This document shows, piece after piece, positions 36,867 to 53,998 of a DNA stretch of 56,947 bases (its first letter is position 1; every line of letters starts with the position of its first letter). A program made the position numbers and the translations under genes. A model generated the notes under the pieces. The model did not search any database. It was given only the letters and a program-made list of their open reading frames with translations, and was not told where the DNA came from. The DNA comes from Fibrobacterota bacterium (GTDB lineage: Bacteria; Fibrobacterota; Fibrobacteria; UBA11236): positions 1 through 56,947 of the forward strand of contig JAQBPO010000087.1 of the NCBI GenBank assembly GCA_028287465.1. The letters run 5' to 3'.

Positions 36867-38543
36867 CTAGTTGCGGATCGCCTTGACGACCTTGGTGCCT
36901 TCGCTCGTGGTCACGTGGACCAGGTAGATCCCGGCCTGCTTGACCTCGCTGAAGGAAACGGGTGCGGGGCCTTTGGCGGTGCGGGCGGCCAGCGGGCGGC
37001 CCATCAAATCGCGCACCACGATGGTGAATTCGCCCTGGGTCGCCACCGAAACCGCGAAGCCGGGCGTGGGCAGGATGTCGACCTTGGGTCCGGCCCAGGC
37101 CAAGCCTTCGCGGGCGGCCTTGAAACCGACCGTGGAGGGGGTCTCGAGCTTGGGTTCCGGCGGACGGCAGGTCCCGGTATATTCGATGCGGATGATCCCG
37201 GTATTGGCGCCGCTGGTGCGGTACCCATCGTAATTGTTGACGTAGAGCGCCCCGTCCGGGCCGGCCTGCATGTCCAGGGGGCCGTGCAACGGGATTCCGA
37301 TGACCTTTTCCTCCGCCGTGATTTTGGTTCCGTCCTCGTTCAGGCTGAAGAGGGTCATCTTGTTGGCGTCCCCGTTGAAATCCGAGACCATCCATTTGCG
37401 GGTGAAGTGGGGCGGGAACTTGATGGAGGAGTTGAGATCCCCGTCGTACCGGAAGATGGGACCGGTGATGGCGCAGGACTTCCTGTACGCATAGATGGGC
37501 GCGATGGCGGGAGGCAGGGTCTTGAGGCCGGCTCCGGAAGGTCCCCAATCGGCATTGTCCGGGACCACGGGCGCGGCGGCATTGGTGCCGGGCTTGGTGG
37601 CGAAATCCCCCGCGAAGAACGGGTAGCCGTAATTGCCGGGAGCCTTGGCGAGATCGTACTCTTCGGTCTTTTCCGTGGAGCCGGTCTGGTTCATCGGCTG
37701 ACCGTCCATGTTCACGTTGTCGGGACCGACGTCGCCCCAGACCGCCCAACGGCGGACCGGATCGAGGGACAGGGTGTACGGATTGCGGTTGCCCATGATG
37801 TAGATCTCGGGGCGCGTATTGGCCGTGCCCGCGGGGAAGAGGTTCCCGGCCGGGATGGTGTAGGTGCCGCTCGCGGTGGGATGGATGCGCAGGATCTTGC
37901 CGCGCAGATCGTTCGTGTTGGGCGAGCTATAGGTGGGGAAGTCGCTGCCGTTCTTGTAGTCGTTTCCCGTGGTGATCCAGAGGTCGCCGTAAGCGTCGAA
38001 CTGGAGGGCGCCGCCGGGATGCTTGGATCCGGAATTGATGGGGACCTTGATGACCACGACCTCGGAGGCCAGGTCGATCTTGTCATGGGCCTCATTGACG
38101 GTGAAGCGGGATACGCGCCAATTCTTCTCGGTCCCGGAAACATAGGTGTAATAGACGTAAAGGAAGTTGTTCGACTTGAAGGCCGGATCCAGGGCGATGC
38201 CCAGTACGCCGTCCGAGGAGTTCGCGATATCGATGTTCAGGGTGATCTTGGCCAGGGTGATGACCTTGGAAGTCTTGGAGTCGAACTTCCGGATCTTGCC
38301 GAGGCGTTCGGTGAAATAGACGTCCACCTTGCCCTTCGCGTCCTCGGTATTGGATGCCAGGAGGTCGAAGGCCATCTTCATGGGTTCCGCGGTGGTATCC
38401 GTCGTGCGGGTCGCGATCGGGACGGCCTTGAATTCCGTATTGGCGACGTCCGTGCAACCGGGCCAGGTGAGGGCGGCGTGGGTCGAGACGGCGAATCCCA
38501 ACGCGAGGATTGAGAGGGATGCATACTTGGATTTCGAAGCCAT
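36867..38543 (-). CDS. PQQ-dependent sugar dehydrogenase-like (GSDH family) secreted protein, copy 2
   Basis: The start at 38543 (MASKSKYAS) follows an AAAGG and gives 558 residues with a signal peptide (LSILALGFAVSTHA-A). The propeller motifs parallel those of the copy at 33463: PMKMAFDL, VYFTERLGKIRKFD, SDGVLGIALDPAF, GKILRIHPTASG, IMGNRNPYTLSLDP, and GPIFRYDG. In this copy the residues before GVLGIALDP are NSSD, so the His found in copy 1 (GEHGLLG) is missing, which may mean a non-catalytic or different function. The C-terminal sorting-like module is present (TIVVRDLMGRPLAARTA... GIYLVHVTTSEGTKVVKA). A strong terminator follows the stop. Confidence 0.85.
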   Translation of the reverse strand: MASKSKYASLSILALGFAVSTHAALTWPGCTDVANTEFKAVPIATRTTDTTAEPMKMAFDLLASNTEDAKGKVDVYFTERLGKIRKFDSKTSKVITLAKITLNIDIANSSDGVLGIALDPAFKSNNFLYVYYTYVSGTEKNWRVSRFTVNEAHDKIDLASEVVVIKVPINSGSKHPGGALQFDAYGDLWITTGNDYKNGSDFPTYSSPNTNDLRGKILRIHPTASGTYTIPAGNLFPAGTANTRPEIYIMGNRNPYTLSLDPVRRWAVWGDVGPDNVNMDGQPMNQTGSTEKTEEYDLAKAPGNYGYPFFAGDFATKPGTNAAAPVVPDNADWGPSGAGLKTLPPAIAPIYAYRKSCAITGPIFRYDGDLNSSIKFPPHFTRKWMVSDFNGDANKMTLFSLNEDGTKITAEEKVIGIPLHGPLDMQAGPDGALYVNNYDGYRTSGANTGIIRIEYTGTCRPPEPKLETPSTVGFKAAREGLAWAGPKVDILPTPGFAVSVATQGEFTIVVRDLMGRPLAARTAKGPAPVSFSEVKQAGIYLVHVTTSEGTKVVKAIRN

Positions 38544-38690
38544 GTTCCAACCTTTGTTCGTGGTCGCCCGGATTATCCCCCGCCGGACGGTACCCATAAC
38601 ATAAATCCAAGGCCGGGATTCTCCATGCCGAAACGCCCCGGATCCGTCGTATTTAATGAACAATTTCCCGGCCGAAGTGGGGAAAAATAG

Positions 38691-38769: not shown

Positions 38770-39864
38770 TCAATACGAGCCGGCCGCGGGAGCCGGGGCC
38801 TTCCAATCGCGCGTTCCGGCATCGATCGCAACGGCCTTTTTCCCGAAGAGGTAATGCGAGACGAGCCACTCTTCGCCGCCCTTGAAATCCCAGAGTTCCT
38901 CGCAGGACATGAAGAAGATGCGCCAATACTCCAGCCACTTCCGCGCTTCCGCCTTACCGTAGGTCCCGATGAGCAGGGGCATGGCCCGTTCCCGGTTGCG
39001 GTCCAGGTTTTCGAGCCACGCGCGCGAGGTCCTGGCGTAATGGCTGCCGTTCACGCGCCAATGCTCCAGGATGCCCAGGTCCCGTTGGAAATACAGGAGC
39101 AGATCGTCCGATGGCATGTTGCCGCCCGTGAAGAAATGCCTTCCCATGAAATCGTCTTCGCCCGTCGTCTCGAAGGCGTACGCGTATTCCTTGTGCGTGA
39201 AGATATGCACGAAGAGCTTTCCGTCCGGATTCAGCCAGGAGGCGACCTTGGCCATCAGCCGTTCATAATTCTTCATATGCTCGAACATCTCCACCGAGAC
39301 CACCCGGTCGAAACGGAGATCGGTATCGAAGCGGTTCATGTCTTCCGTGACGATGCGGAGGTTCTTGATCCCGCGGCGCCGGCATTCCGCCTGGATATGC
39401 TCGCGCTGGGTGCGGGAATTGGAGACGCCGAGGATGGCGCTGCGCGGGTACCGTTCCGCCATCCAAAGGGAAAGCGATCCCCAGCCGCATCCCAGTTCCA
39501 GGATGTCCATGCCGTCCTCGAGGCGCGCGCGCTCGCAGGTCAGCGAAAGCATGGCGTCCTCGGAGGCGTCGAGATCGGCAATTCCTTCCGGCCAGAAGCC
39601 TCCGCTGTATTTCATGTTGCGGCCCAGGCAAAGCGCGAAAAAGGCGGTGGGCAACTCGTAATGCTGGGCGTTGGCCGCTTCGGTTTCCACGGCGATGGGA
39701 CCGGCCTTGAGCCCGCGGATGAACCCTTGCAAGGCCTCCGTACGCGCCTCGATGGGCCCCTTGTCCTCCTCGCGGAGGCGGTCCTTGAGCAGGCGGCGTA
39801 TGCCGAAGCGTATCAGGGCATCGGGCACGAGCCCCTTTTCGACGAGTTTCATAATCGGGATCAC
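38770..39864 (-). CDS. Cyclopropane-fatty-acid-synthase-like SAM methyltransferase (last gene of lipid operon)
   Basis: The GTG start at 39864 overlaps the DUF1295 stop (GTGA) and has AAGGA 8 nt upstream, giving 364 residues. The SAM-binding motif is [20 protein letters not shown], preceded by the lipid-facing helical region ([19 protein letters not shown]) and followed by [17 protein letters not shown]. It belongs to the CFA/MMA-synthase superfamily but is shorter and diverges from the canonical enzyme encoded at 42821. It may methylate or further modify unsaturated phospholipid acyl chains at the membrane. It is the last gene of a five-gene coupled operon. Confidence 0.88.
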
Positions 39865-40691
39865 GGTGCCGTCCTTTCGTTCGCGTTCTTTCCCCGCGCG
39901 CGCGGGAACCAGGGGAAGAAGGCGTTGACGGAGGCTTGGTAATCCGCATAGGCGGCCCCTCGGCTCCGCATGGCCTGTTTTTCGGTGGGAGGGATTCCGC
40001 TCACCTTGAGGAGCAGGAACAGGATGATGGCCGGGCTCAGCCAGCCCAGGGCGCCCCACGCTCCCAGGCCGCCCGGGATGGAAGCGGAGGCCATCAGGGC
40101 ATAGGCGCACCAGATCAGCCACTCGAAGAAATAATTGGGATGGCGGGACAGGTTCCAGAGTCCCTTGCGGCATACCTGCCCCCGGTTGGAGGGATCGGCC
40201 TTGAAGGCCTTCAATTGCGCGTCCGCCAGGGATTCGCCCGAAAGCGCGACCAGCCAGAGGGCCGCGGCCGAGCCCTCCAGGAGACCGGGACCCTCGCCTG
40301 GGTTGTAGGCGGTGAGCAGGAAGGGAATGGCGAGAACGATATTGAGGACGCCTTGGCCGAGGAAGAAATACAGGAAATAATGGTTCGCCTGGGCCCCCCA
40401 ATGGGAACGGAGGTAAACGTATCGCCCCTCTTCAGGAGTGCCGCCGGCGACGCGGTCCCGGTAGAGGTGCCAGGCCAGGCGGAAAGCCCAGGCTCCCGCA
40501 AGGCCGGCAAGGAGCATCCGGCGCTTCACAGGGGCGGTGCCGATCGCGGCATAGAGCCAGGCCAGGAGCCCCAGGCCCGCGGCCCAGCCGACATCGACGA
40601 TGGCGGCGTTACGGATACGCAGATGGTACCCCCAGAGCAGGGCCATCAGGACGATCATCGATGCGGAACCGGTACAGGCCGCGATCACCAT
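39861..40691 (-). CDS. DUF1295 membrane protein (steroid-reductase-like fold)
   Basis: This 276-residue polytopic protein has about six or seven helices and the DUF1295 signature near the C-terminus: [24 protein letters not shown], followed by [26 protein letters not shown]. The fold is related to isoprenylcysteine methyltransferases and 3-oxo-5-alpha-steroid reductases, so reduction of a lipid double bond or methyl transfer is plausible. It overlaps the upstream DUF1365 gene by 7 nt and the downstream methyltransferase by 4 nt. The substrate is inferred to be the acyl chain handled by the operon. Confidence 0.9.
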
Positions 40692-41521
40692 GGTTCGGAT
40701 CCTTTGGACGCCCCGGCGGGCCGGAGGTATCCCGGCTTCATCCCATCATGGGGGCGGAAGGCCAGCGGTACCTTTTTCAGCCATAGTTTCAGGGCCTGCC
40801 AATGGATCCAGGCGATGATCCAGACCGTCATGAAGGGGATCCTGAGGAAGGATCCCAAAAGGGGCCAATCCCCCATGGGCGACCACTCTCCCGTAATCCG
40901 GGTCTTCAGGACCGGCTTCCCGTCCCGGTAATCGTCGATGAATACGCCCAGCCTGCCGCCGAGGGCTTCGAAGCGGAACCGGTAGGTCATGCCCATCTCC
41001 AGGAAAGGGGAGACGTAGAAGACCTTCTCCGCGGTGAATTCCGCCTCCGCGCCCGCTCCCGGGCCGAAGAAGGCGTAGCAATGCCGCTGATGGAAGGTAT
41101 TGTTGACCTCGGCCACGTAGGCCACCGGCCTTCCCTGGGAATAGCAGTAGTAGAAGGTGACGGGATTGAACAGGTATCCCAGGATGCGCAGTTGCGTCAC
41201 CATGAACACTTTATCGACCGATCCCCGGAATCCGCGTTCCCGCAGGAGGGCGAGGACGCCGGCCTTGATGCCTTGGGCGGGCGCATCGGTCCCGCCGGAC
41301 CGGACCGGAAGGCCGGTCTCGTTCAAGTGATCCCCGTCCCGGAGGGAATAAAGCGAGAACCGGTTATGGCCGAAGAGGAGCAGCTTGCGGTCCCACCCCG
41401 CGGTTTCGTCCAGGTCCATAGAGAAGATGAATATCGGGTAGGTGAAGGAATGGCGTTTCGGGCTGAAACGGTTATGCGCGATCCGGCCCCAATAGATCCC
41501 CGTTTCCGGCATCGCTTCCAT
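40685..41521 (-). CDS. DUF1365 protein of lipid-modification operon
   Basis: The 278-residue protein matches DUF1365: RFSPKRHSFTYPIFIFSMDLDE at the N-terminus, LRILGYLFNPVTFYYCYSQ in the middle, and YVAEVNNTFHQRHCYAF, with the end containing a possible membrane-associated helix (FMTVWIIAWIHWQALKLWL). DUF1365 genes regularly sit between a flavin oxidoreductase and CFA-type methyltransferases, as here, in clusters connected in other bacteria with membrane lipid modification under oxidative or singlet-oxygen stress. The biochemical role is unknown. Its ATG overlaps the stop of the upstream gene by one base (TGATG). Confidence 0.92.
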   Translation of the reverse strand: MEAMPETGIYWGRIAHNRFSPKRHSFTYPIFIFSMDLDETAGWDRKLLLFGHNRFSLYSLRDGDHLNETGLPVRSGGTDAPAQGIKAGVLALLRERGFRGSVDKVFMVTQLRILGYLFNPVTFYYCYSQGRPVAYVAEVNNTFHQRHCYAFFGPGAGAEAEFTAEKVFYVSPFLEMGMTYRFRFEALGGRLGVFIDDYRDGKPVLKTRITGEWSPMGDWPLLGSFLRIPFMTVWIIAWIHWQALKLWLKKVPLAFRPHDGMKPGYLRPAGASKGSEPW

Positions 41522-42819
41522 CAGAACTCGACCCCGAAATGCCTGGCCACGGTGACGGCGGAGCGGAGGCCGTCCTCATGGAAGCCGTAGCCGCAATAGG
41601 CGCCGCAGAAATAGGTCCGGTTGGATCCGTTGAGGGAGTCGATTTCCTTCTGCCGGTCCATGCCTTCGGAACTGTAGAGCGGGTGCTCGTAGCGGATGCG
41701 GAAATGCTCATCCGGCATGGGCTCCGCGGTGGCGGGATTCAGGGTCACAATGTATTCCTTCTTCGAAGGGATTCCCTGCAGGCGGTTCATATGGTAATGC
41801 AGGCAGGGCGCGGCATTGAGGGCGCTTTCGTCGACCTCGTAATTCCAGGCGGCCCAGGCGTCCTGGCGCTTGGGGAGGACGGACTTGCCGGAGTGCAGTA
41901 CCGCATCGTTGGCCTGGTAGGCGAACAGGGAAAGGAGATCCTTTTCCGCCGCGGAGGCGTCCCGGAGCAGGCGCAAGGTGATGTCCGCATGGGTGGCCAT
42001 CACCACCTGGTCGAAGGCGAAGGTCTCGCCGCCCGCCAGGACCACGCGCGCGCCTTCCCGATCCCGGTACACGCCGGTCACCTCGCTGGAATAGCGGATA
42101 CGGTCCTTGAAGGGGGCGGTGATCTTCTTGACGTACTCCCGGCTGCCGCCCTTGATGGTGCGCCATTTGAAGTTGGTGGTCACCCCCAGCATGCCGTGGT
42201 TGGCCAGGAAAAGCAGGAAGGAGTGCAACGGGAAGTCCATCATCTTGGCGGTGGGGGTGGACCAGATGGCCGCGCCCATGGGCAGGATGTAATACTCGCG
42301 GAACTTTTCCGAGTACCCGTTCCCTTGGAGGTACCGGCCCAAGGTATGGCCGGCATGGGAACGCGCGGCCAGGATGCGGTTGCCCTCCCGGTTGAAACGG
42401 AATATCTCCCAAAGCATCCGGTAGAACCAGGGGCGGAACAGATTCCGTTTCTGGGCGAATAGGGTGGCCAGGTTGGTGCCGCAGTATTCGAAACCCGACA
42501 CGGTGCCCTTCACGGAAAAGGACATGTCGCTTTCCATGGTCTCGACCTTCAACTCTTCCAGGAGCTTGCAGAAGTAGGGATAGGTGTGCTTGTTGTAGAC
42601 GATGAATCCGGTATCCACCGGCAATTTGCGGCCCTCCTCGTCCACGTCCACGGTATTGGCGTGGCCGCCGGGGCGCCCTTCCTTTTCGAAAACGGTGACT
42701 TCCGCGACCCGGTGGAGGAGGTACGCGGAGGCCATTCCGGCGATCCCGGTGCCGATGACGGCTATCTTCGGTTTCCCGGCAGCACCTGCGCGCCCGATCT
42801 GTTCTGGTGTCGGGGACAT
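41521..42819 (-). CDS. FAD-dependent amine-oxidase-like oxidoreductase (possible fatty-acyl desaturase)
   Basis: The start at 42819 (GGAGG 6 nt upstream, 1-nt gap after the CFA stop) gives 432 residues. The FAD-binding motif is KIAVIGTGIAGMASAYLL with VTVFEKEGRPGG, followed by the family stretch VDTGFIVYNKHTYPYFCKLL and a C-terminal FAD contact (YFCGAYCGYGFHEDGL). Flavoproteins of this type are always found with DUF1365 and CFA-like genes. In Rhodobacter a flavin desaturase (UfaD) of furan-fatty-acid synthesis acts on methylated acyl chains; this protein may be of that kind, but I cannot confirm orthology from sequence alone. Confidence 0.9.
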   Translation of the reverse strand: MSPTPEQIGRAGAAGKPKIAVIGTGIAGMASAYLLHRVAEVTVFEKEGRPGGHANTVDVDEEGRKLPVDTGFIVYNKHTYPYFCKLLEELKVETMESDMSFSVKGTVSGFEYCGTNLATLFAQKRNLFRPWFYRMLWEIFRFNREGNRILAARSHAGHTLGRYLQGNGYSEKFREYYILPMGAAIWSTPTAKMMDFPLHSFLLFLANHGMLGVTTNFKWRTIKGGSREYVKKITAPFKDRIRYSSEVTGVYRDREGARVVLAGGETFAFDQVVMATHADITLRLLRDASAAEKDLLSLFAYQANDAVLHSGKSVLPKRQDAWAAWNYEVDESALNAAPCLHYHMNRLQGIPSKKEYIVTLNPATAEPMPDEHFRIRYEHPLYSSEGMDRQKEIDSLNGSNRTYFCGAYCGYGFHEDGLRSAVTVARHFGVEF

Positions 42820-42820
42820 C

Positions 42821-44149
42821 TCAATCCTCCAGGAAGTTGGGGCCGCGGAAGGCGGTATTGTTCGGAAGGGAAAGGACCATCTGGACCAGGCCCAGGTTGC
42901 GGGTCTTGAAGGCCGATTCGCAATAGGCGAGGTAATATTCCCAGGTGCGGATGAAGCGCCCGTCGAACCCGAGTGCGCGGACCTCGTCCAGCCTGGCCAT
43001 GAATCCCAGGCGCCAATCCTTGAGGGTGCGGGCATAATGGAGATCGAAATTCTCCAGGTGCTGGATCATGAGTCCTCCGGAATCCCGCACGGCGCGGGAC
43101 ATCTCGTAGACCGAAGGAAGCAGGCACCCCGGGAAGATATGCTTCTGGATCCAATCGCATCCGCCCTTGTACGCGTCGAACCGGGAATCCGGCATGGTGA
43201 TGACCTGCATGGCCATGAGGCCGTCCGGCTTCAGGGCCGCGCGGCAGGTTTCGAAGAAGGTCCCGAAGTATTCGTGGCCGACGGCTTCGAACATCTCGAT
43301 TGAAACGATCTTGTCGTAGCTCCCCGTGATCTCCCGGTAATCCTGGAAGCGGACTTCGATGCGATCCGAAAGCCCGGCCAGGCGGATGCGCTCATCGGCA
43401 AGGGCCTTTTGCTCCTTGGACAGGGTCAGGGTCGTGACCCGGCAGCCGTAACGCCCGGCGGCATGGATGGCGAAGCCGCCCCAGCCCGATCCGATTTCCA
43501 GCACATGGTCCGAGGGTTTTAATTCGAGTTTGCGGCAGAGGATGTCGAATTTGTTGATCTGGGCCTCGTGCAAGGTGTCCCCGGGACCGCGGTAGACGGC
43601 GCTCGAATACGCCATGGAGGGGTCGAGGAACAGGGCGTAAAGTTCGTTGCTCAGGTCGTAGTGGAAGGCGATGTTGGTCCGGCTTCCTTGCAGGGTATTG
43701 CTGCGCTTGCGGTGCAACTCCAGGTTGGCCGCGGCCTCCCGTCCCACTTCCGGCGCCTTGGAGGTGGAACCGCTGATGCCGGGAAGATGGGGGATGTTCA
43801 GGAGGAGGATGCGCAGGAAAACGGTGAGGTCGTCCACGTCGAAATGGCCCGCCTGGTAGCTTTCCCCCAGGCCCACGTCCCAGAACCGGACCAGGTTGTC
43901 GAAGAGCGCGTTGTCCCGTACGACCACGCGGCTGCGCAGGTCGGCGGCGGGATCGCCCAGGACCCACAGCCCGTTGTCCAGGGTTTCCACCTCGATGCAG
44001 CCCACCTTGATATTGGACAGGATGGAACGCACGGCCTGCTCCGGGAAGAACCGGGCCGCGGCCTTCACGGCCAAGGCGCCGGCGGCGCGGGCCAGGCCGC
44101 CCGTGAGGTTTTCCGTGAATCCTTTTTTGCCGCCGCTCTTCCAGGTCAT
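42821..44149 (-). CDS. Cyclopropane-fatty-acyl-phospholipid synthase family protein (first gene of lipid operon)
   Basis: The 442-residue protein has an N-terminal lipid-recognition domain (YQAGHFDVDDLTVFLRIL) and a C-terminal SAM methyltransferase domain with VLEIGSGWGGFAIHAAGRYG, LSKEQKALADERI and IVSIEMFEAVGHEYFGTFF. The fatty-acyl pocket motif NIAFHYDLSNELYALFLDPSMAYSS matches CFA synthases. It would transfer a methylene or methyl group to an unsaturated acyl chain. The start has AGGAG 8 nt upstream. An ECF-type promoter candidate (44183-44208) lies about 34 bp ahead of the start. This gene leads the operon running to 38770. Confidence 0.93.
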   Translation of the reverse strand: MTWKSGGKKGFTENLTGGLARAAGALAVKAAARFFPEQAVRSILSNIKVGCIEVETLDNGLWVLGDPAADLRSRVVVRDNALFDNLVRFWDVGLGESYQAGHFDVDDLTVFLRILLLNIPHLPGISGSTSKAPEVGREAAANLELHRKRSNTLQGSRTNIAFHYDLSNELYALFLDPSMAYSSAVYRGPGDTLHEAQINKFDILCRKLELKPSDHVLEIGSGWGGFAIHAAGRYGCRVTTLTLSKEQKALADERIRLAGLSDRIEVRFQDYREITGSYDKIVSIEMFEAVGHEYFGTFFETCRAALKPDGLMAMQVITMPDSRFDAYKGGCDWIQKHIFPGCLLPSVYEMSRAVRDSGGLMIQHLENFDLHYARTLKDWRLGFMARLDEVRALGFDGRFIRTWEYYLAYCESAFKTRNLGLVQMVLSLPNNTAFRGPNFLED

Positions 44150-44182
44150 GGTGTCTCCTAAAGGTCTTTGCCGTACATACGG

Positions 44183-44208
44183 ATCGATTCTAGAAACGGA
44201 TGGGTTCC
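44183..44208 (-). promoter_or_regulatory. ECF-type promoter candidate for the lipid operon
   Basis: On the minus strand GGAAC (44208-44204) is followed by exactly 17 bp and then CGAT (44186-44183), 34 bp before the ATG. The same GGAAC-N17-CG layout occurs upstream of the ECF sigma gene at 46908. This fits the general AAC / CG form of ECF promoters. Confidence 0.55.
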
Positions 44209-44269
44209 GGGGACGGGTGAAAAAACGGTCATTAATGGGGGAAAAGCGGTTTTATTATTTTAAATCCCG

Positions 44270-45073
44270 GTGAATCCGAAGCATATTCTTCTACGTAGGT
44301 ATGCACGCATGATTCCCTTCCTGATGATATCGGCCCTTCTCTCCGCGACCGCCCCGGCGGCCGCATCGGCCACCGATGCGGCCGCATCGGCAGCCGATAA
44401 GTCCGTTCAGGAGATCCGGTTGATCATCGGGGAGGCCTTCCCCTTGGAGGGAGGCGCGGGCGCCCCCCAGGCGTATGTCGAAGAGCATCGGGAGCGGCTC
44501 GAGGGCGATCGAACGGTCTCGATGAGCACGGTATATCGGGACGTTTCCGGAACGGTCCTGGCGGAGCGGACCCTGGATTTTTCGGCCTCTTCTTCGCATC
44601 CCGGATACGCCCTCAAGGACCTGCGCAGCGGGATGGAGGAAGGGGCGACGGTGCGCGGAAAGGTGGTACGGGTGCGGAGCCGGGCCTCGAAAGCCTCGGA
44701 AACCCGGGAAAAGGATTTTAAGGTGCCGGAGCCATTCGTGATCGATGGAGGCTTCCATTCCTTCCTCAAGGGGAATTGGGACGCCCTGATCGGGGGGAAG
44801 AGGATCAGCTTCTATTTCGTGGTGCCATCCCGCCTCGATTTCTTCCGCTTCGTCGCGTACGAGGATCCGAGCCGCGCGGCCCATGGGGCGGGGGAAAGGG
44901 TATTCGTGGCCATTCCCCAGAGCCGCGTCCTGCGCATGGTGGTCGAGCCCATAGTGGTCCGCTATGACGCCGCTTCGCGCCGCATGAAGGAATACCGGGG
45001 ACTCTCCAACATCGAAGGCCCCGGCGGCAAGCCCCAAAAGGTCCGCCTGGTCTACCGGGAACCCGGGCTGTGA
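44270..45073 (+). CDS. Exported protein of unknown function
   Basis: The product is 267 residues from a GTG at 44270, with a signal peptide (RRYARMIPFLMISALLSATAPAAASA). An ATG at 44309 is an alternative but would lose the positive n-region. I do not recognise the family. The mature protein is beta-rich and basic-acidic mixed, with GYALKDLRSGMEEGATVRG, FVIDGGFHSFLKGNWD, GKRISFYFVVPSRLDFFRF and LRMVVEPIVVRYDAASRRM. The strand pattern suggests a periplasmic lipid- or sugar-binding beta fold. It overlaps the following hydrolase by 4 nt (GTGA), so the three genes 44270-46889 form one operon, divergent from the lipid-modification operon. Confidence 0.75.
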   Translation: MNPKHILLRRYARMIPFLMISALLSATAPAAASATDAAASAADKSVQEIRLIIGEAFPLEGGAGAPQAYVEEHRERLEGDRTVSMSTVYRDVSGTVLAERTLDFSASSSHPGYALKDLRSGMEEGATVRGKVVRVRSRASKASETREKDFKVPEPFVIDGGFHSFLKGNWDALIGGKRISFYFVVPSRLDFFRFVAYEDPSRAAHGAGERVFVAIPQSRVLRMVVEPIVVRYDAASRRMKEYRGLSNIEGPGGKPQKVRLVYREPGL

Positions 45074-46311
45074 GGATGGAGCTGTCCCTCTGGTCCGGCC
45101 TGCGCATCGCGGCCGCCGCGCTATTCTTCCTGACCGGCCTCCTGGCCGTATGCAAGCCTCCGTCCTATTCCTTCTGGAAGCTTTCCATCGTCGTGATGGA
45201 AGGCGGGCATTTCCTGGTCCTCCCGTTGCTGGCGTTGGGAGTCTGGTGCCTTTTCACGGCCGGCCCCTCCTATGCCCAGGCCGGATCGGGTTCCGCGCGC
45301 CTGGCGGGGGTCCTGTTCCTCCTCTCCGCATGCCTCTATGCCGCGACGGCCATCCGGGCCATGGCCGCGGCAGCCCGGTTGGAGCGCGAATTCTCCAACG
45401 GTTGGGCCGGCATCGAGCCGCCCCCAGGCGGTTTCCGCCGGGCAAAACCCCTGAGCATCCCGGATATGTTCCTGGGCATCCCTTTGCCCGCTGGCGCCCC
45501 GAAGACATACGCCTATAAACCGGCCGACTCCGGGGACCTGAAGCTGGATTTCTACCCCGCAAGGATCGTTAAGCCGGATAAACCCGATAAACCCGGCGCG
45601 GCCGCGAACCACCATAAAGGTCCCGCCCCTTGCGTGGTGGTGGTCCATGGCGGCGGATGGGATGGCGGCGCGCGCTCCCAGCTCGCGCCCCTGAATGCGT
45701 TCCTGGCGGCGGAAGGTTATGCCGTGGCCACCCTGCAATACCGGCTCGCGCCCAAGCACCTTTACCCGGCCCCGGTCGAGGACGTCGCCGACGCCATGGC
45801 CTGGCTGAGGTCCCATTCCGGCGAGCTGGGGATAGATACGACCCGGTTCGTGCTGCTCGGGCGATCCGCGGGCGGGCAGATCGCCTTGCAGGCGGCCTAC
45901 ACGGCCAAGGACCCGGCCATCAAGGGCGTCATCGCGTTCTACGCCCCAGCGGACATGGTCTTCGGCTATAGCCTTCCCACCAATCCGCTCATCATGGACT
46001 CGCGGCTCCTGATGGAGCAGTACCTGGGCGGAGGCTATCCGGCCGTTCCGGAGAAATACGTGGCCTCTTCGCCGGTGGAGCACCTGACGGCTTCCAGCCC
46101 GCCCACCCTTCTCCTTCACGGCCGGCCCGATGTCCTCGTCTCCTGGCGGCATACCGTCCACATGCGCGCGAAGATGGACTCCCTGGGCGTGCGCCATTTC
46201 ATCGTGGACGTACCCTGGGGGGCCCATGGTTTCGACTACGTGGTCCGCGGTCCCGGCTCCCAGCTGAGCCTGTATTTCATCGAACGCTTCCTGGCCGCGG
46301 TGACCCGATGA
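45070..46311 (+). CDS. Membrane-anchored alpha/beta hydrolase (HSL/esterase type)
   Basis: The 413-residue protein has about three N-terminal hydrophobic helices (LRIAAAALFFLTGLLAV, FLVLPLLALGVWCLF, RLAGVLFLLSACLYAATA) and then a hormone-sensitive-lipase-like domain. It has the oxyanion motif VVHGGGWDGG, nucleophile LGRSAGGQIAL, acid in LHGRPDVLVS and His in WGAHGFDY. It would act as a membrane-bound esterase or lipase, active side not determined. The GTG start overlaps the upstream stop, and its own stop overlaps the start of the following outer-membrane gene (ATGA), so all three are translated together. The context points to an envelope-lipid role. Confidence 0.87.
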   Translation: MRMELSLWSGLRIAAAALFFLTGLLAVCKPPSYSFWKLSIVVMEGGHFLVLPLLALGVWCLFTAGPSYAQAGSGSARLAGVLFLLSACLYAATAIRAMAAAARLEREFSNGWAGIEPPPGGFRRAKPLSIPDMFLGIPLPAGAPKTYAYKPADSGDLKLDFYPARIVKPDKPDKPGAAANHHKGPAPCVVVVHGGGWDGGARSQLAPLNAFLAAEGYAVATLQYRLAPKHLYPAPVEDVADAMAWLRSHSGELGIDTTRFVLLGRSAGGQIALQAAYTAKDPAIKGVIAFYAPADMVFGYSLPTNPLIMDSRLLMEQYLGGGYPAVPEKYVASSPVEHLTASSPPTLLLHGRPDVLVSWRHTVHMRAKMDSLGVRHFIVDVPWGAHGFDYVVRGPGSQLSLYFIERFLAAVTR

Positions 46312-46889
46312 GGGCTCCGGCCATCTCCCGAATCCCCGTCCGGCCCGGCGGCATCGTGCGGGCCGCCCTGATCCTGGCGGCGGCCGCGGCATCGCAGGCC
46401 CATGCCGGCGATTACGCCGATCGCGCGGATCGCCGCCTGGGCGTCGAAGTGAACGTCCTTTGGCCGTTACCGCCCTTCAGCACCTACGAGATCAAATTCC
46501 GCGGCAAGCTGGGGCATGGCGTGGAAGCCGTGATCGGGTACGGACGCCAGGCCTGGACCTATAAGGGGAAGCGGCACAATCAGGGGGAGATCGATTCCCA
46601 TGCGCTCTTGATCGGGGCCCGCGCCTATCCGGTAGGCAACGTGAGCGTCGAGTATACGGCCTGGCTCTGCAAGGACGTGTTCCACCACGTGAATGGCCGG
46701 ACCTATAGCGGCTACGCCTATGCCAACGAGTTCTACCTCGGTTACGCCTATTATTTCGGCCAATCCCCGATCTATGTTCTGCCGCAGTGGAACGCGGGAT
46801 TCTATTCCTGGAAATCCTACGAGATGCCTCTGAACGACGATTACGTCTTCGACTTCCTCCCCAAGCTTTCCGTAGGAGCCGATTTCTGA
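46308..46889 (+). CDS. Small outer-membrane beta-barrel protein
   Basis: The 193-residue product has a signal peptide (IVRAALILAAAAASQAHA-G) and a barrel-like pattern of alternating strands: GVEVNVLWPLPPFSTYEIKF, VEAVIGYGRQAWTY, SHALLIGARAYPVG, YANEFYLGYAYYFGQ. It ends in SVGADF with the C-terminal aromatic residue of outer-membrane proteins. Size and pattern resemble eight-strand barrels of the OmpW/DUF3575 sort. It is the third gene of the operon and starts within the hydrolase stop (ATGA). The function is unknown; a small-molecule pore or lipid deacylase-like barrel are both conceivable. Confidence 0.7.
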   Translation: MRAPAISRIPVRPGGIVRAALILAAAAASQAHAGDYADRADRRLGVEVNVLWPLPPFSTYEIKFRGKLGHGVEAVIGYGRQAWTYKGKRHNQGEIDSHALLIGARAYPVGNVSVEYTAWLCKDVFHHVNGRTYSGYAYANEFYLGYAYYFGQSPIYVLPQWNAGFYSWKSYEMPLNDDYVFDFLPKLSVGADF

Positions 46890-46907
46890 TGCATCCAATC
46901 GCCCGCG

Positions 46908-46933
46908 GGAACCTTTTTGTAGTTTTTGGCGCC
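46908..46933 (+). promoter_or_regulatory. ECF-type promoter candidate upstream of the sigma factor gene
   Basis: GGAAC (46908-46912) is followed by 17 bp and CGCC (46930-46933), 75 bp before an ATG at 47005 and 177 bp before the start at 47107. The layout equals that of the lipid operon promoter candidate at 44183, suggesting autoregulation. Confidence 0.45.
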
Positions 46934-47106
46934 TATGGTGCCGCATCGATGTCCGTAAGCAATCCGTATTCCGGATCCGTGCGTATCTCAATGCGAGCGC
47001 AATCATGGAAACGGCAACCCATCAATTCGGCACCGCAGTGGACTGGCTCCCTGAGCCCCCGTTCCGGGATATTCCGTTCCCGGACCGTTGCGGCGGGGGC
47101 GCGGGC

Positions 47107-47667
47107 ATGACCCTGCCCGCGGAAATCCCCATGTTGATGCAACGCATCGCGCAACGGGATGATCAGGCCCTGGCGGAACTCTACTCCCGCTTCTCGAAGG
47201 CGATTTACAACATCATCTTCGCCATCGTGAAGCGCAAGGAGGACGCCGAGGAGATCCTTTGCGAAATCTTCTTCCAGGTCTGGGAAAAGGCGCCTGCCTA
47301 TGACATCGCCAAGGGTTCGGTTTACACCTGGCTGCTCACCATGGCCCGCAATCGCGCGATCGATCGCATCCGCTCGAAGGGCTATAGGAACGAGAAAGCC
47401 GGTTCCTCCATGGATGTGGATGACATAGCGGGGTCGGATCACTATAATCAATTGGATAACGTGGTGCTTTCGGAACGCGCCGCCCTGGTCAAGTCGGCCC
47501 TGGAGAAGATTTCCCCGGACCAGCGGCGCGTCCTGGAAACGGCCTATTTCGACGGTCGGACCCAGAGCGAAATAGCGGTCACCTTGGGGCTTCCCTTGGG
47601 TACGGTGAAATCGCGGGTGCGCGATGGTATGAAGGCGATGCAGGGCCTCCTGAAGGATTTGATCTGA
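47107..47667 (+). CDS. ECF-subfamily RNA polymerase sigma factor
   Basis: From the ATG at 47107 the protein has 186 residues. An in-frame ATG at 47005 would add 34 residues without obvious homology. Region 2 is clear (LAELYSRFSKAIYNIIFAIVKRKEDAEEILCEIFFQVWEKA; the TWLLTMARNRAIDRIRS stretch), and region 4 has SALEKISPDQRRVLETAYF... SEIAVTLGLPLGTVKSRVRDGM. It directs RNA polymerase to stress promoters when released from its anti-sigma factor. It is coupled to the RskA-like gene by a TGATG overlap. A candidate ECF promoter lies upstream, and a second copy of the motif precedes the lipid operon. Confidence 0.93.
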   Translation: MTLPAEIPMLMQRIAQRDDQALAELYSRFSKAIYNIIFAIVKRKEDAEEILCEIFFQVWEKAPAYDIAKGSVYTWLLTMARNRAIDRIRSKGYRNEKAGSSMDVDDIAGSDHYNQLDNVVLSERAALVKSALEKISPDQRRVLETAYFDGRTQSEIAVTLGLPLGTVKSRVRDGMKAMQGLLKDLI

Positions 47668-48509
47668 TGGCCATGGAAAGACGGGAATTCCTCGATCTCT
47701 GCCCGGCCCATGCCTTGGGGCTGCTGGATGGGGAGGACCTTGCCCGGTTCGAAAGGGAGCTGGCCTCCGCCGATCCGGAAATGCTGGCCGCCTACCGCGA
47801 GGCGGTCAACGCCGCGTCCAACCTTTCCCTGGCCGCTCCGCCCGCCCCTCTCTCTCCCGCCGTTCTGGATACCCTGATGCAACGCGTTCAGGCAGCCAAA
47901 GCCGGTACCGGATCGATCGCCTCGCGGTCCGCCCCGGGCGGCTCCCGTCCCGAGGGCCCCCGCATAGCCTGGATCTTCCCTTTCCGGATTGCCGCAAGCG
48001 TAGCCGTGGGCCTCGCCCTCCTTTCCCTGGGCCTGATCGCCTACGCGTCATCCCTCCGCAAAGACATGTCGGAGATCAAGACGGTCGTTGCGGAGGACCG
48101 CCGGCGGATCGTAGCGCTGACCGATTCCCTGGCCCAGAAGGAAGCCATGCTGGAGGTCCTCAAGTCGGACCAGATGCAGATGGTGGTGATGAAGGGCCAG
48201 GAAGCGGATCCCGTGGGCTATGGCAAGATCATCTGGGACCCGGTCCGGAAACAGGCCATCCTGCACGTCTCCCGCCTGCCTGCCCAGCCCGCGGACAAGG
48301 ATTACCAGCTCTGGGTGATCCGGGATTCCAAGCCCGTCGACGCCGGCGTGTTCCGCGTGAGCGGCAACCGCAAGGACGGCGAACTTTACAAGATCGACCG
48401 TTTGGTGGAAACGGACCGCGGCCGCATCAACGCCTTCGCCATCACGCTAGAGCCCAAGGGCGGCCTGCCTCAGCCTTCGGGCAAGATGTACCTGCTCGGC
48501 AGCATCTAG
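47667..48509 (+). CDS. RskA-like membrane anti-sigma factor
   Basis: The 280-residue protein has an N-terminal sigma-binding domain (CPAHALGLLDGEDLARFERELASADPEM) without the HxxxCxxC zinc motif, one transmembrane helix at about residues 108-130 (IAASVAVGLALLSLGLIAYA), a short coiled coil and a periplasmic RskA/anti-sigma-K domain (KQAILHVSRLPAQPADKDYQLWVI, DAGVFRV, GRINAFAITLEPKGGLPQPSG). Such proteins hold ECF sigma factors at the inner membrane and are released by regulated proteolysis. Its stop shares the bases CTAG with the stop of the convergent ferredoxin gene. Confidence 0.9.
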   Translation: MAMERREFLDLCPAHALGLLDGEDLARFERELASADPEMLAAYREAVNAASNLSLAAPPAPLSPAVLDTLMQRVQAAKAGTGSIASRSAPGGSRPEGPRIAWIFPFRIAASVAVGLALLSLGLIAYASSLRKDMSEIKTVVAEDRRRIVALTDSLAQKEAMLEVLKSDQMQMVVMKGQEADPVGYGKIIWDPVRKQAILHVSRLPAQPADKDYQLWVIRDSKPVDAGVFRVSGNRKDGELYKIDRLVETDRGRINAFAITLEPKGGLPQPSGKMYLLGSI

Positions 48510-48805
48510 GCCGCGCGCAGCCTCAACCGGATCGCCTTTTCAGGGCAAACCTCCACGCATTTCCCGCAAGCCTGGCAGGCATCCGCGCGCACGGCATGGG
48601 CCTGTTTGTTCCCATGGGCGAAGGCCTTGAGTTTCGGGAAGAATCCCAGCCCGGCCTTCTCTTCGGCGGTCAATGGCGAAATCTCGAAGACATCGTATGG
48701 GCATGCGGTGACGCACGGGCCCTTGGCCTCGCACCGCGAACGGTCGATGACGGGTTCGTATTTCCCCGGCGGCTGGGGACAGGGCTTGACTATGGATTCG
48801 GGCAT
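48506..48805 (-). CDS. Ferredoxin, two [4Fe-4S] clusters
   Basis: The 99-residue protein has two cluster motifs: CEAKGPCVTACPYDVF and CQACGKCVEVCPEKAI, separated by a longer central segment (LTAEEKAGLGFFPKLKAFAHG). This is the layout of a cytoplasmic 2[4Fe-4S] ferredoxin with an insertion. A GGAGG site lies 9 nt before the ATG. It is a single gene, convergent with the anti-sigma gene. The large oxidoreductase at 50213 carries its own ferredoxin domain, so this protein may be its soluble partner or serve another enzyme. Confidence 0.92.
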   Translation of the reverse strand: MPESIVKPCPQPPGKYEPVIDRSRCEAKGPCVTACPYDVFEISPLTAEEKAGLGFFPKLKAFAHGNKQAHAVRADACQACGKCVEVCPEKAIRLRLRAA

Positions 48806-49958: not shown

Positions 49959-50212
49959 GGTCGAGGTGACGTCGCCGCAACCCGGTAAAGTGTCCATGGA
50001 CCCTGAAAGGGTTTATAATAAAAGGGCATGGCTAATAGCGGGTTTCGCACCCATGCCGGTAGGACGTTCCCAGCGTCGATCCCGGCATGTCAGAGCGGCC
50101 CGGGCGGCAACTCCACCCTGGGCGCCTTGCCGCTCCCGTCACTTCCAGGTTACTCCTCCAGCACACCGCACGAGTCCCATACGCCGATGGATGGGGAAAA
50201 GGGGATGACGAT

Positions 50213-53200
50213 ATGATCGCGGAAACCGGCAAGGGAGCCACGGGCAAGCGCGAACCGCGCCAACTCAACGCTTCCGAATACGCTCACCTCTCCTCCATCA
50301 ACGAAGCGCCCAATCAGGTGCTGGGCGACCACCTGATCCAGCTGGAGAATTTCCAGGACTTCACGGACAAAGGCACCCATGTCAAAGGCGGCAATGCGGG
50401 GCAACGCAAATGGACCGACAAGAGCTTCGTGCCCATCACCCTTTCCACCCAATGCATCGATTGCCTGCACTGCGTGGTGGCGTGCCCGCACCAATCCATC
50501 GGCTACGAGGTGACCGATAGGGCGCCGGAGCCGATCTTCCACATGTTCACCAAGACCTTCAACCTGCTCCCCGGGATGAACCTCGACCCCAAGACCGAGA
50601 CCCATGCGGTCAAGAAGGGCGCGACCCACTACAACCATTGCAAGGGCTGTTTCGTCTGCGCCTCCGCTTGCCCGACGGGAGCCATCCATTTCGTCCCCGC
50701 CGAGCTGGTCGATATGGAAGCGCATGACGGGCTGCCCATCACCGCCGCGGACGTGGGGAGGATCTTCAAGGTCCCTTCCGCGGAGGGCGAGCAATGGGTG
50801 CAACGCTGGATCCAGGACGCGGCCAAGGTCCTGGCGGCGCATCAGGCCCAGCTCATCGGCGGCGCGGCCCCAAAGGTGTTCAATGGATCGGTCATGTTCG
50901 CGGACTTCACCTTCCAGGCCAAGTTCGACAGCGTGTCCATCTTCCCCATCACCCCGAATACGTCCCTGCTGAAGCAGATAGAGGACCGGTCCTCCCACCA
51001 GTCCCCGGATGCGGCCCATCGCCTTCAGTTCCGCCCCTGCCTGTCCGAGGAATCGGGGTACGCCTGGCTTACGGGCTCGGCCGTCCGCGGCAAGCGTTCC
51101 CTGATGGCGCAAGGCTCCCAGAGCCTGGCCCAGATCTACGAGTTCATGAACATCAATCCCGGCCTGCATCTGCCCATCTTCATGCTGGAGCTGACCCGCG
51201 CCCTGTCCCCGGGCACCACCACCAAGCCCGATCACACCACCACCTTCCGCACTTCCGACACGGGGGAGATCATCCTCTTCGGCCGCGGCATCCAGGACGA
51301 TTACGACAAAGCCTTCCTGCTCCTGAAGGTGATGGAGTCCCAGGGCGTCTGGATCCCGGGACGCCTGGTCGTGAAGGGTTTCGTGGAGACCCATACCCTG
51401 ACCTCGGAGCGCCAGGGGCACCTGGAAAAGCTGAGCGATGCGGATGCGGACGCCTTCCTGGGACGGCCCAAGAACCCCTTCGTCTTCGACGACGATGAGA
51501 ACCGATCCATCGGCATCCTGGACATGGACAGCCGGTACGCGGAGCAGCGCCAGGCCATCGACGAGGTCCTGATGCGGGCCGGCCGGAATTTCGATCAAGC
51601 GGCCGCGGAACTGTCCGCGTTCACGGGCCGCCCGGCCATCCGCAAGGTGGGGCGTTACCCGGAGGACGGTCCGCTGGATTTCTGCATCGTGGGCCTGAAC
51701 GATCCCGACATGTCCTCGGCCGAATACGTGGCCGAGCGCCTGAACAGGCAAGGGATCCGCTGCGGCGTGGTCTCCATCAACCTGTACCGGCCCTTCCCCT
51801 CGGATGAGTTGCGCAAGTGCCTGGCCGGCTGCAAGTCCGTGGCCGTGGTGGAATACAACAACTGGTCCGGCCGTTCCGGCGGCGGCATCCTGGCCCAGGA
51901 AGTCCGCTCGTCCCTGTACGACCTGGAGAACCCGCCCTATATCATGTCCGCGACCATCGGCCTCGGCGGCCGCGCGGTGACAATCCCGTATTGGGTGACC
52001 CTGTTCCGGATGCTGGCGGACGTTTCTTCCGGCCAGGAGAATACGCGCACCCACCGGTGGCTGAAGGAATTCGCCAACGGGCACTCCTTCGTGCTGGGAA
52101 CCCGCGGCAACCCTTATCCCCAGACCGACGCGAGCTTCGACATCCCTTTGATGGAAGAGGGAGTCCGGCAGATCGCGGTGGTTGGCAAGGGCGGCCAGGG
52201 CCTGCTGCAGCTCAACTCCATTTTCACAGGCGTGGCCAGCATCCGCGGGCAGTACGCCCTTTCCATGGCCGGCTTCGGGGCCTTGCAACGCGGCGGGGGC
52301 ATCACCCTCAGCATCAAGCAGAGCAACGAGCCCATCCGGGACTGGTCCGACATCATCATGGCGGATACCATCATGGCCTTCGACGAGGACGTATCCCTTG
52401 AACCCATGCTCCGCCAGCTGGCCCCGGGGGGCGTGCTGATCCTGGACGGGGAGGAGGCCGCGGCGGAACGCTACCGCACCATGCTTCCCAAGGACAGCCG
52501 AATCATCCTCATCCCGGCCAAGCGCATCTCGCGCCGGCTGTACGGGAGTTCCGCCAGGACGAACATGATCCTGTGCGGATCCATGCTGGCCCATATGGGC
52601 GTGGACGACATGGAAGAACTGCTTTCCCTGTTGGACGGGCTGGCCCAGGTTAAGGGGATCGAAAAGGAGGCCAAGCTCCTCCTCACCTCCAAGAACCGCG
52701 AAGCCATCCTGGCGGGGTTCATGGCCTACCAAAAGGCCGCGCGCGGCGGCGACGACTGGACCGCGGTCGCGGGAGAGGCGGAACCTCCAGCGGTGGAGTC
52801 CCTGGAGGATTTCCAGGCGCGCATCCTGCCGCCCAGCCTGCTCAAGGCCTTGCCGGATCCCAAGAAGCTGCGCTGGGTGGAGAAGATGTACGCGATCAAG
52901 AAGTGGGCCTACCAGACCATGTTCCGCTTCCATCCCACCATCAACAAGGTGCAGAGCATGTACGTCAGCCTCAACGGCAAGGGTCCGTTGACGGCCGGGG
53001 ACATGGCCTGCGCGGGCTGCGGGCAGATCAACATCTTCCGCACCGTGTTCGACTACCTGGGCTACCTGCAGCAGGACAAGGGGAAGATCTACGTGAGCGA
53101 GCAGGACGGCTGCGGCACCGTTATCTCCGGCCTCAACCGCACCTCCATCTGGAACCTGCCTTACGTGCGCATCGCCTTCGAGACCGCGCACGGGGTGGCT

Positions 53201-53998
53201 TCCGGCCTGTCGCACAACGTGCCGAGCGGGGACATCGTGGTTTCCATCTCCGGCGACGGCGGCTTCATGCAGGGGCTCCGGTCGGTGGAGGACGCCCTGC
53301 ACCAGCAGGATCCCATCTTCCATATCGTGGTCATCAACCAGACCCTGGGCAATACGGGAGGCCAGGCCACCTCGACCACCATGACCGGGGCCAAGACCCG
53401 GGACGGCCACGTGTCGCGGCGGGAGCCGGTGAACTTCCTCAAGTACGCGGAGAAGTACTGCGTTCAAGGGGCGGTGGCCTCGACCGTCCATCTTTCCGAC
53501 CTGTACAAGAAGATCCAATGGGGCCATCACGTGGTCCGCGAGGAGAAGAAACCCTTCCTGCTCCTGATGCACTTCAGCTGCCTGGAACAGGGGATCAACC
53601 TGGCGCGCAGCATGGGCGCGCAGAAGATGGCCCTGGACGCGCATTTCTACAACCTGTATTCGCTGCGCTACCACGAGGTGAAGAACCGCGAGGGCAAGAC
53701 CTTGTACCTGCAGAAGCGCACCACCGTCGATTGGTTCCCCTGGACCTTCACGCGCAAGCAGTGGAAGGATCGGCTCCGCAAGTATTACGGGATCCAGAAG
53801 ATGATGGCCCATTCCGCCCATGACGAGACCATCCTCGAGCGGGATTACTGGCTGCTGCGGGGCGAGTGGAAGCATCTGGCCCATGAGATGGGTTTCTTCC
53901 GCTTCCACCTGGCCATGATCCGGAACATGTTCTCCATCCATCGCGCGACCATGGCGCGCCTCATCCATTGGGAAATCCCCAAGGAAGCGGGGCAATGA
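50213..53998 (+). CDS. Fused 2-oxoacid:ferredoxin oxidoreductase with N-terminal ferredoxin domain
   Basis: The start at 50213 (AAGGGG 8 nt upstream) gives 1261 residues. Residues 80-155 hold two [4Fe-4S] motifs (Cys81/84/87/91 and Cys143/146/149/153). A pyruvate-oxidoreductase-like alpha region follows (GSAVRGKRSLMAQGSQS; a domain II part with VGLNDPDMSSAEYVAERL and VVEYNNWSGRSGGGI). Then comes the gamma domain (VVGKGGQGLLQLNSIF), and last the thiamine-diphosphate beta domain (GDMACAGCGQINIF; ISGDGGFMQGLRSVEDAL ... NQTLGNTGGQ). This order, ferredoxin-alpha-gamma-beta, differs from classical PFOR, where the ferredoxin domain precedes the beta domain. It should interconvert a 2-oxoacid and acyl-CoA plus CO2. 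It leads the beta-oxidation operon. Confidence 0.88.
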   Translation: MIAETGKGATGKREPRQLNASEYAHLSSINEAPNQVLGDHLIQLENFQDFTDKGTHVKGGNAGQRKWTDKSFVPITLSTQCIDCLHCVVACPHQSIGYEVTDRAPEPIFHMFTKTFNLLPGMNLDPKTETHAVKKGATHYNHCKGCFVCASACPTGAIHFVPAELVDMEAHDGLPITAADVGRIFKVPSAEGEQWVQRWIQDAAKVLAAHQAQLIGGAAPKVFNGSVMFADFTFQAKFDSVSIFPITPNTSLLKQIEDRSSHQSPDAAHRLQFRPCLSEESGYAWLTGSAVRGKRSLMAQGSQSLAQIYEFMNINPGLHLPIFMLELTRALSPGTTTKPDHTTTFRTSDTGEIILFGRGIQDDYDKAFLLLKVMESQGVWIPGRLVVKGFVETHTLTSERQGHLEKLSDADADAFLGRPKNPFVFDDDENRSIGILDMDSRYAEQRQAIDEVLMRAGRNFDQAAAELSAFTGRPAIRKVGRYPEDGPLDFCIVGLNDPDMSSAEYVAERLNRQGIRCGVVSINLYRPFPSDELRKCLAGCKSVAVVEYNNWSGRSGGGILAQEVRSSLYDLENPPYIMSATIGLGGRAVTIPYWVTLFRMLADVSSGQENTRTHRWLKEFANGHSFVLGTRGNPYPQTDASFDIPLMEEGVRQIAVVGKGGQGLLQLNSIFTGVASIRGQYALSMAGFGALQRGGGITLSIKQSNEPIRDWSDIIMADTIMAFDEDVSLEPMLRQLAPGGVLILDGEEAAAERYRTMLPKDSRIILIPAKRISRRLYGSSARTNMILCGSMLAHMGVDDMEELLSLLDGLAQVKGIEKEAKLLLTSKNREAILAGFMAYQKAARGGDDWTAVAGEAEPPAVESLEDFQARILPPSLLKALPDPKKLRWVEKMYAIKKWAYQTMFRFHPTINKVQSMYVSLNGKGPLTAGDMACAGCGQINIFRTVFDYLGYLQQDKGKIYVSEQDGCGTVISGLNRTSIWNLPYVRIAFETAHGVASGLSHNVPSGDIVVSISGDGGFMQGLRSVEDALHQQDPIFHIVVINQTLGNTGGQATSTTMTGAKTRDGHVSRREPVNFLKYAEKYCVQGAVASTVHLSDLYKKIQWGHHVVREEKKPFLLLMHFSCLEQGINLARSMGAQKMALDAHFYNLYSLRYHEVKNREGKTLYLQKRTTVDWFPWTFTRKQWKDRLRKYYGIQKMMAHSAHDETILERDYWLLRGEWKHLAHEMGFFRFHLAMIRNMFSIHRATMARLIHWEIPKEAGQ

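Follow-up and report, generated by a model that had tools for sequence, protein, structure and literature searches.

Does the ECF sigma factor encoded near a lipid operon in a Fibrobacterota bacterium drive both that operon and its own gene, and if so, through which promoter boxes and under which kind of anti-sigma factor? We addressed these questions in a 57-kb stretch of DNA (GCA_028287465.1, contig JAQBPO010000087.1, positions 1-56,947), referred to here in its full length as the window, and in genomes of the same family.

Gene content and the sigma/anti-sigma pair

The locus comprises two divergent sets of genes (Table 1). A tight operon on the minus strand runs from 44149 to 38770 and encodes, in order, CFA1, the FAD oxidoreductase, the DUF1365 and DUF1295 proteins, and CFA2, while the plus strand carries the secreted protein, the alpha/beta hydrolase, the outer-membrane-like protein, the ECF sigma factor and the RskA-type anti-sigma factor. 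Pfam searches matched no known domain in either the secreted or the outer-membrane-like protein. As a first-pass annotation of this DNA had recognized, the lipid genes parallel those under ChrR control elsewhere, sharing the FAD, DUF1365, CFA and DUF1295 genes with RpoE-ChrR (ECF11) loci, and hydrolase genes, here beside the lipid operon, occur in ChrR-controlled lipid loci too. Downstream of the anti-sigma gene we also observed a small ferredoxin-like gene (48506-48805) and a very long open frame (50087-53998); the early part of the latter has ferredoxin-like cysteine motifs, and it may encode a fused oxidoreductase acting on 2-oxoacids or indolepyruvate.

Table 1. Features of the locus by position in the window (G003, G004, G006 and G007 are compared genomes).
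Feature	Position	Strand	Evidence or remark
CFA/CMAS-family lipid methyltransferase 2 (CFA2), last gene of the operon	38770..39852	-	CMAS E=1.9e-42; start codon chosen among possible starts
DUF1295 membrane protein, steroid-reductase-like	39861..40691	-	PF06966 E=1.4e-59
DUF1365 protein	40685..41521	-	PF07103 E=1.1e-71
FAD-dependent amine-oxidase-type oxidoreductase	41521..42819	-	Amino_oxidase E=5e-22
CFA/CMAS-family lipid methyltransferase 1 (CFA1)	42821..44149	-	CMAS E=6.3e-87
P1, putative lipid-operon promoter, CCATCC (-35)-N16-CGTATGT (-10)	44175..44203	-	also in G003, G006, G007, spacers differ
GGAAC-N17-CGAT	44183..44208	-	present; overlaps P1; judged chance match
P2, putative promoter divergent from P1, GAATCC-N16-CGTAGGT	44272..44300	+	before secreted protein/hydrolase/outer-membrane-like genes; also in G003, G006, G007
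Predicted secreted protein, first gene after P2	44309..45073	+	ORF, signal-peptide-like N-terminus
Alpha/beta hydrolase, N-terminal part hydrophobic	45070..46311	+	BD-FAE / Abhydrolase_3
Predicted outer-membrane-like protein	46308..46889	+	ORF
GGAAC-N17-CGCC	46908..46933	+	present; about 50 bp upstream of P3; judged chance match
P3, putative sigma-gene promoter, CAATCC-N16-CGTATCT	46960..46988	+	also in G003, G004, G006, G007
ECF sigma factor, SigK-like	47005..47667	+	Sigma70_r2 and r4 matches
Anti-sigma factor, RskA type	47667..48509	+	RskA_C (PF10099) E=9.6e-21

The anti-sigma factor had been described as a membrane RskA type rather than a zinc-cupin ChrR, and the domain search bears this out, returning RskA_C without Cupin_7, a domain that ChrR controls do give. 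Hydropathy predicts one transmembrane helix at about residues 106-126, and RskA_C is found in the anti-sigma factors of all orthologues; a profile search with RskA against the PDB found nothing. For the sigma factor, the best solved relative is Mycobacterium tuberculosis SigK (PDB 4nqw, 99.5 bits, versus 80 for Rhodobacter sphaeroides RpoE), and the top NCBIfam model is likewise SigK, at 151 bits, below its cut-off of 226. Both redox cysteines of M. tuberculosis SigK are absent, Cys133 and Cys183 aligning with Ala and Leu, respectively; the pair is found in 94% of ECF18 and only 56% of ECF19 members (PMC7509140), so its absence does not exclude ECF19. In a 21-row tree with long branches and weak deep support, this sigma factor grouped with other Fibrobacterota and a Bacteroidetes sequence (94/93), M. 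tuberculosis SigK with Caballeronia and Pantoea (88/85), and the alphaproteobacterial ChrR-paired sigma factors formed a separate group (100/99), placing the Fibrobacterota factor outside ECF11. Its close relatives in a named collection came from Fibrobacterota assemblies. The factor would work like SigK-RskA, and it may or may not belong to SigK proper.

A conserved ATCC-N16-CGTA element and its distribution

The element ATCC-N16-CGTA occurs in just three copies in the window, all directly upstream of locus genes (P1, P2 and P3), and its longer form ATCC-N16-CGTAT has two matches in the window versus 0.32 expected. In P3 the CGTA box stops 19 bases short of the sigma start at 47005, and in the alignment orthologue conservation of the sigma factor begins near 47110; the true start may therefore be 47110, or else the P3 leader may be very short.

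Each of the 13 orthologous promoters that we compared, from five Fibrobacterota genomes of the same family, has the element; this is a set in which the motif was first spotted by eye in the genomes later scored and in which the promoters are not independent because the genomes are related. When every pair of 4-mers separated by 8-22 bases was enumerated over the 13 promoters, ATCC-16-CGTA was the sole dyad found in all of them; the runner-up, an overlapping shift of the same dyad, reached 10, and shuffled control sets reached at most 3/13.

In this small set of genomes the element is distributed with the sigma gene. The whole arrangement is kept in G003 and G006 and is split across two contigs in G007, and with G000 these make up the four genomes in which sigma factor, lipid operon and element co-occur. 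Across 168 genomes of the phylum, DUF1365 was found in four, all of which carry the sigma factor, and the sigma factor itself (E<=1e-40) in six, namely those four, G004 and G005. In G001, an assembly about 90% complete, CFA1 and hydrolase genes are present, and neither a sigma orthologue nor an ATCC-N16-CGTA element was found. G004 keeps sigma-rskA and P3 and lacks the lipid operon, and the operon is therefore not the sole possible use of the sigma factor. At the corresponding G004 locus (C50:48000-64000) the hydrolase is kept and now adjoins a gene resembling sorbosone dehydrogenase, like the one at window 36867-38663, an arrangement that would fit loss of the operon as a single block. The G005 sigma factor and a second copy in G003 are more distant paralogues (~50% identity), also adjoining RskA genes. 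A similar element precedes the sigma gene in these paralogous pairs (ACATCC-N16-CGTATAA in G003, AATCC-N17-CGTATCT in G005), and sigma paralogues may therefore share boxes.

We also read 24 further ATCC-N16-CGTATC sites of the genome in context. Most scored as coding, and of the two intergenic copies, one ahead of a DUF4331 gene (G000:C28:9187-9214) and one ahead of a carboxymuconolactone-decarboxylase-family gene (G000:C13:9686-9714), neither was conserved at orthologues; for these reasons we claim no regulon member outside the locus.

A putative autoregulated circuit and its alternatives

We propose that the locus constitutes an autoregulated ECF sigma/membrane anti-sigma stress circuit of the SigK-RskA type that uses the ATCC-N16-CGTA promoters P1-P3, a reading to which we assign a probability of roughly 85%. 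RskA, through its one transmembrane helix, would hold the sigma factor at the membrane until a signal, envelope-derived or oxidative, inactivates RskA or alters it, whereupon the sigma factor would be released or activated; simple release is itself an assumption, since in M. tuberculosis RskA acts on SigK as an activator as well as an inhibitor (PMC7509140). The sigma factor would then direct RNA polymerase to the ATCC-N16-CGTA promoters, with P3 yielding the sigma factor and rskA, P2 the secreted protein, hydrolase and outer-membrane-like protein, and P1 the products of the five-gene lipid operon, which would alter the acyl chains of the membrane through SAM-dependent methyl or cyclopropane chemistry. 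Judging from the three matching promoters, one sigma factor very probably drives its own gene, the lipid operon and the divergent operon. The earlier proposal that the same factor acts on its own gene and on the lipid operon is thus supported by the ATCC-N16-CGTA element at both, though not through the boxes originally put forward, and P2 is added as a third promoter.

A different assignment of the same element would have another ECF sigma factor drive the lipid operon, with the local one driving only itself or something else. The ATCC-N16-CGTA core is common to several ECF groups (PMC5507510, PMC4336711, and other loci that we examined), genomes of the family hold many ECF-like candidates, and the G003 paralogue has its own similar upstream element. 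We nevertheless consider this assignment improbable, given that the local sigma factor, the lipid operon and the element co-occur in four genomes, that neither sigma factor nor element was found in G001, that the sigma factor's own promoter has the same element, and that no close sigma paralogue was found in G000 at E<=1e-25.

The first-pass annotation had instead placed the sigma factor's promoters at two GGAAC-N17-CG strings, which resemble RpoE-type promoters of E. coli. Each string is present and each has the 17-base spacer, yet their -10 halves are unlike (CGAT versus CGCC) and the pattern is common: it occurs 23 times in the window (12 + 11), the chance of meeting it on a given strand of a random 200-bp stretch is about 3.5%, and GGAAC-N17-CGAT alone is found 108 times in the whole genome. 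Nor was the conservation expected of such boxes seen in related genomes, as the dyad does not recur among the 13 orthologous promoters; elsewhere in the stretches searched, GGAAC-N16-18-CG was matched only at the G004 and G007 sigma genes, inside a coding region or on the strand opposite to the one required. The better conserved ATCC and CGTA boxes, 16 bases apart, stand beside each string, and at the lipid-operon promoter the ATCC element begins directly after GGAAC (GGAAC, then CCATCC-N16-CGTATG); at the sigma gene the distance from the GGAAC string downstream to the element is about 52 bp. We reject the GGAAC strings as chance matches, and their use by the sigma factor is very unlikely. It is barely credible that a common housekeeping promoter serves the lipid operon, with the shared element left over from ancestry, for though the compared genomes are related, spacers have clearly diverged between two genera while boxes and spacing were kept in 13/13, and the same element precedes the same genes in Betaproteobacteria.

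Lipid circuits with other sensors

The suggestion that the locus reaches the output of RpoE-ChrR by another signal path holds, but it is not new, as SigK-RskA/ufaA1 (PMC10540498, PMC7509140), plasmids of Caballeronia, and Rhodobacter capsulatus (PMC7074977) provide precedents. What is added is a probable RskA-controlled lipid circuit of this known type in Fibrobacterota, with exact positions for its candidate promoters and a sigma lineage that falls apart from M. tuberculosis SigK in our small tree.

In its promoter core and its divergent promoters, the Fibrobacterota locus resembles RpoE-ChrR (ECF11) systems of Rhodobacter, Shewanella, Pseudomonas and Mesorhizobium. The consensus in Pseudomonas syringae, obtained by ChIP-seq, is TGATCC-N16-CGTA (PMC5507510), and TGATCC/CGTATT has been reported with mapped transcription starts in Shewanella (PMC4336711). 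Among the loci that we examined after the motif had been defined, taken from named plasmid records, ChrR loci carry ATCC-N16-CGTA between sigma and lipid genes, mostly as TGATCC, as in Mesorhizobium, Phyllobacterium and Shinella, where sigma-ChrR lies beside the lipid genes with TGATCC-N16-CGTA between. Unlike these systems, the Fibrobacterota promoters have TG before ATCC in 0/13 cases, no photolyase was found in the locus, and the anti-sigma factor is RskA, not the cupin ChrR. The same lipid genes and the same promoter core are found with two sensors, the soluble ChrR and the membrane RskA.

Circuits of this type are most familiar from tuberculosis bacteria. Like the Fibrobacterota locus, the Mycobacterium SigK-RskA system pairs an ECF sigma factor with a membrane RskA encoded next to it, controls a lipid locus of the CFA type and is autoregulated, the last two features being predictions in our case. 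We take Rv0449c, Rv0448c and Rv0446c to be its FAD, DUF1365 and DUF1295 genes, respectively. Mycobacterial SigK-RskA controls two loci, one of which is the sigK locus with ufaA1, encoding UfaA1 (PMC10540498), and sigK is autoregulated via the Rv0449c promoter (PMC7509140); the system has been tested in Yersinia as well (PMC7509140), and the role of the mycobacterial SigK regulon is poorly known (PMC5547695). In contrast to Mycobacterium, sigma-rskA here has its own putative promoter and is separated by some 3 kb from the lipid operon, which occupies the opposite strand; the locus showed no fasciclin (mpt70/83) gene, and the sigma factor differs from M. tuberculosis SigK in its redox cysteines and its position in the tree.

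Caballeronia NK8 (plasmid pNK83) and C. zhejiangensis (p1) carry sigma-RskA with all five lipid genes and, in both strains, GCATCC-N16-CGTA before each of the two lipid transcripts, DUF1295-CFA and FAD-DUF1365-CFA; there, however, all genes lie on one strand and the sigma factor groups with Pantoea and M. tuberculosis SigK. In the RskA loci of Pantoea and Thermomicrobium the element stands before fasciclin-sigma-rskA and before sigma. R. capsulatus has a sigK-rskA-like pair in place of rpoE-chrR, which its authors found to be nearer SigK-RskA than R. sphaeroides RpoE-ChrR (PMC7074977); unlike the Fibrobacterota locus, it adjoins photosynthesis genes, and no homologues of RSP_1090/1091, lipid genes of R. 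sphaeroides, exist in R. capsulatus (PMC7074977). We tentatively raise the possibility, which we consider rather unlikely, that a lineage distinct from both SigK and ECF11 independently joined the lipid genes to a membrane RskA sensor with the promoter core unchanged; if true, this conserved lipid-stress module would have changed its sensor at least twice while keeping its promoters.

Comparison of ChrR-, RskA- and MerR-/TetR-linked operons could show which signals the lipid response serves. The last kind, examined like the other loci after the motif had been defined, had no in-place ATCC-N16-CGTA site in Azoarcus, Salinivibrio or Cupriavidus; in these operons the FAD-DUF1365-CFA genes adjoin regulator genes of the MerR family (Azoarcus, Salinivibrio) or the TetR family (Cupriavidus).
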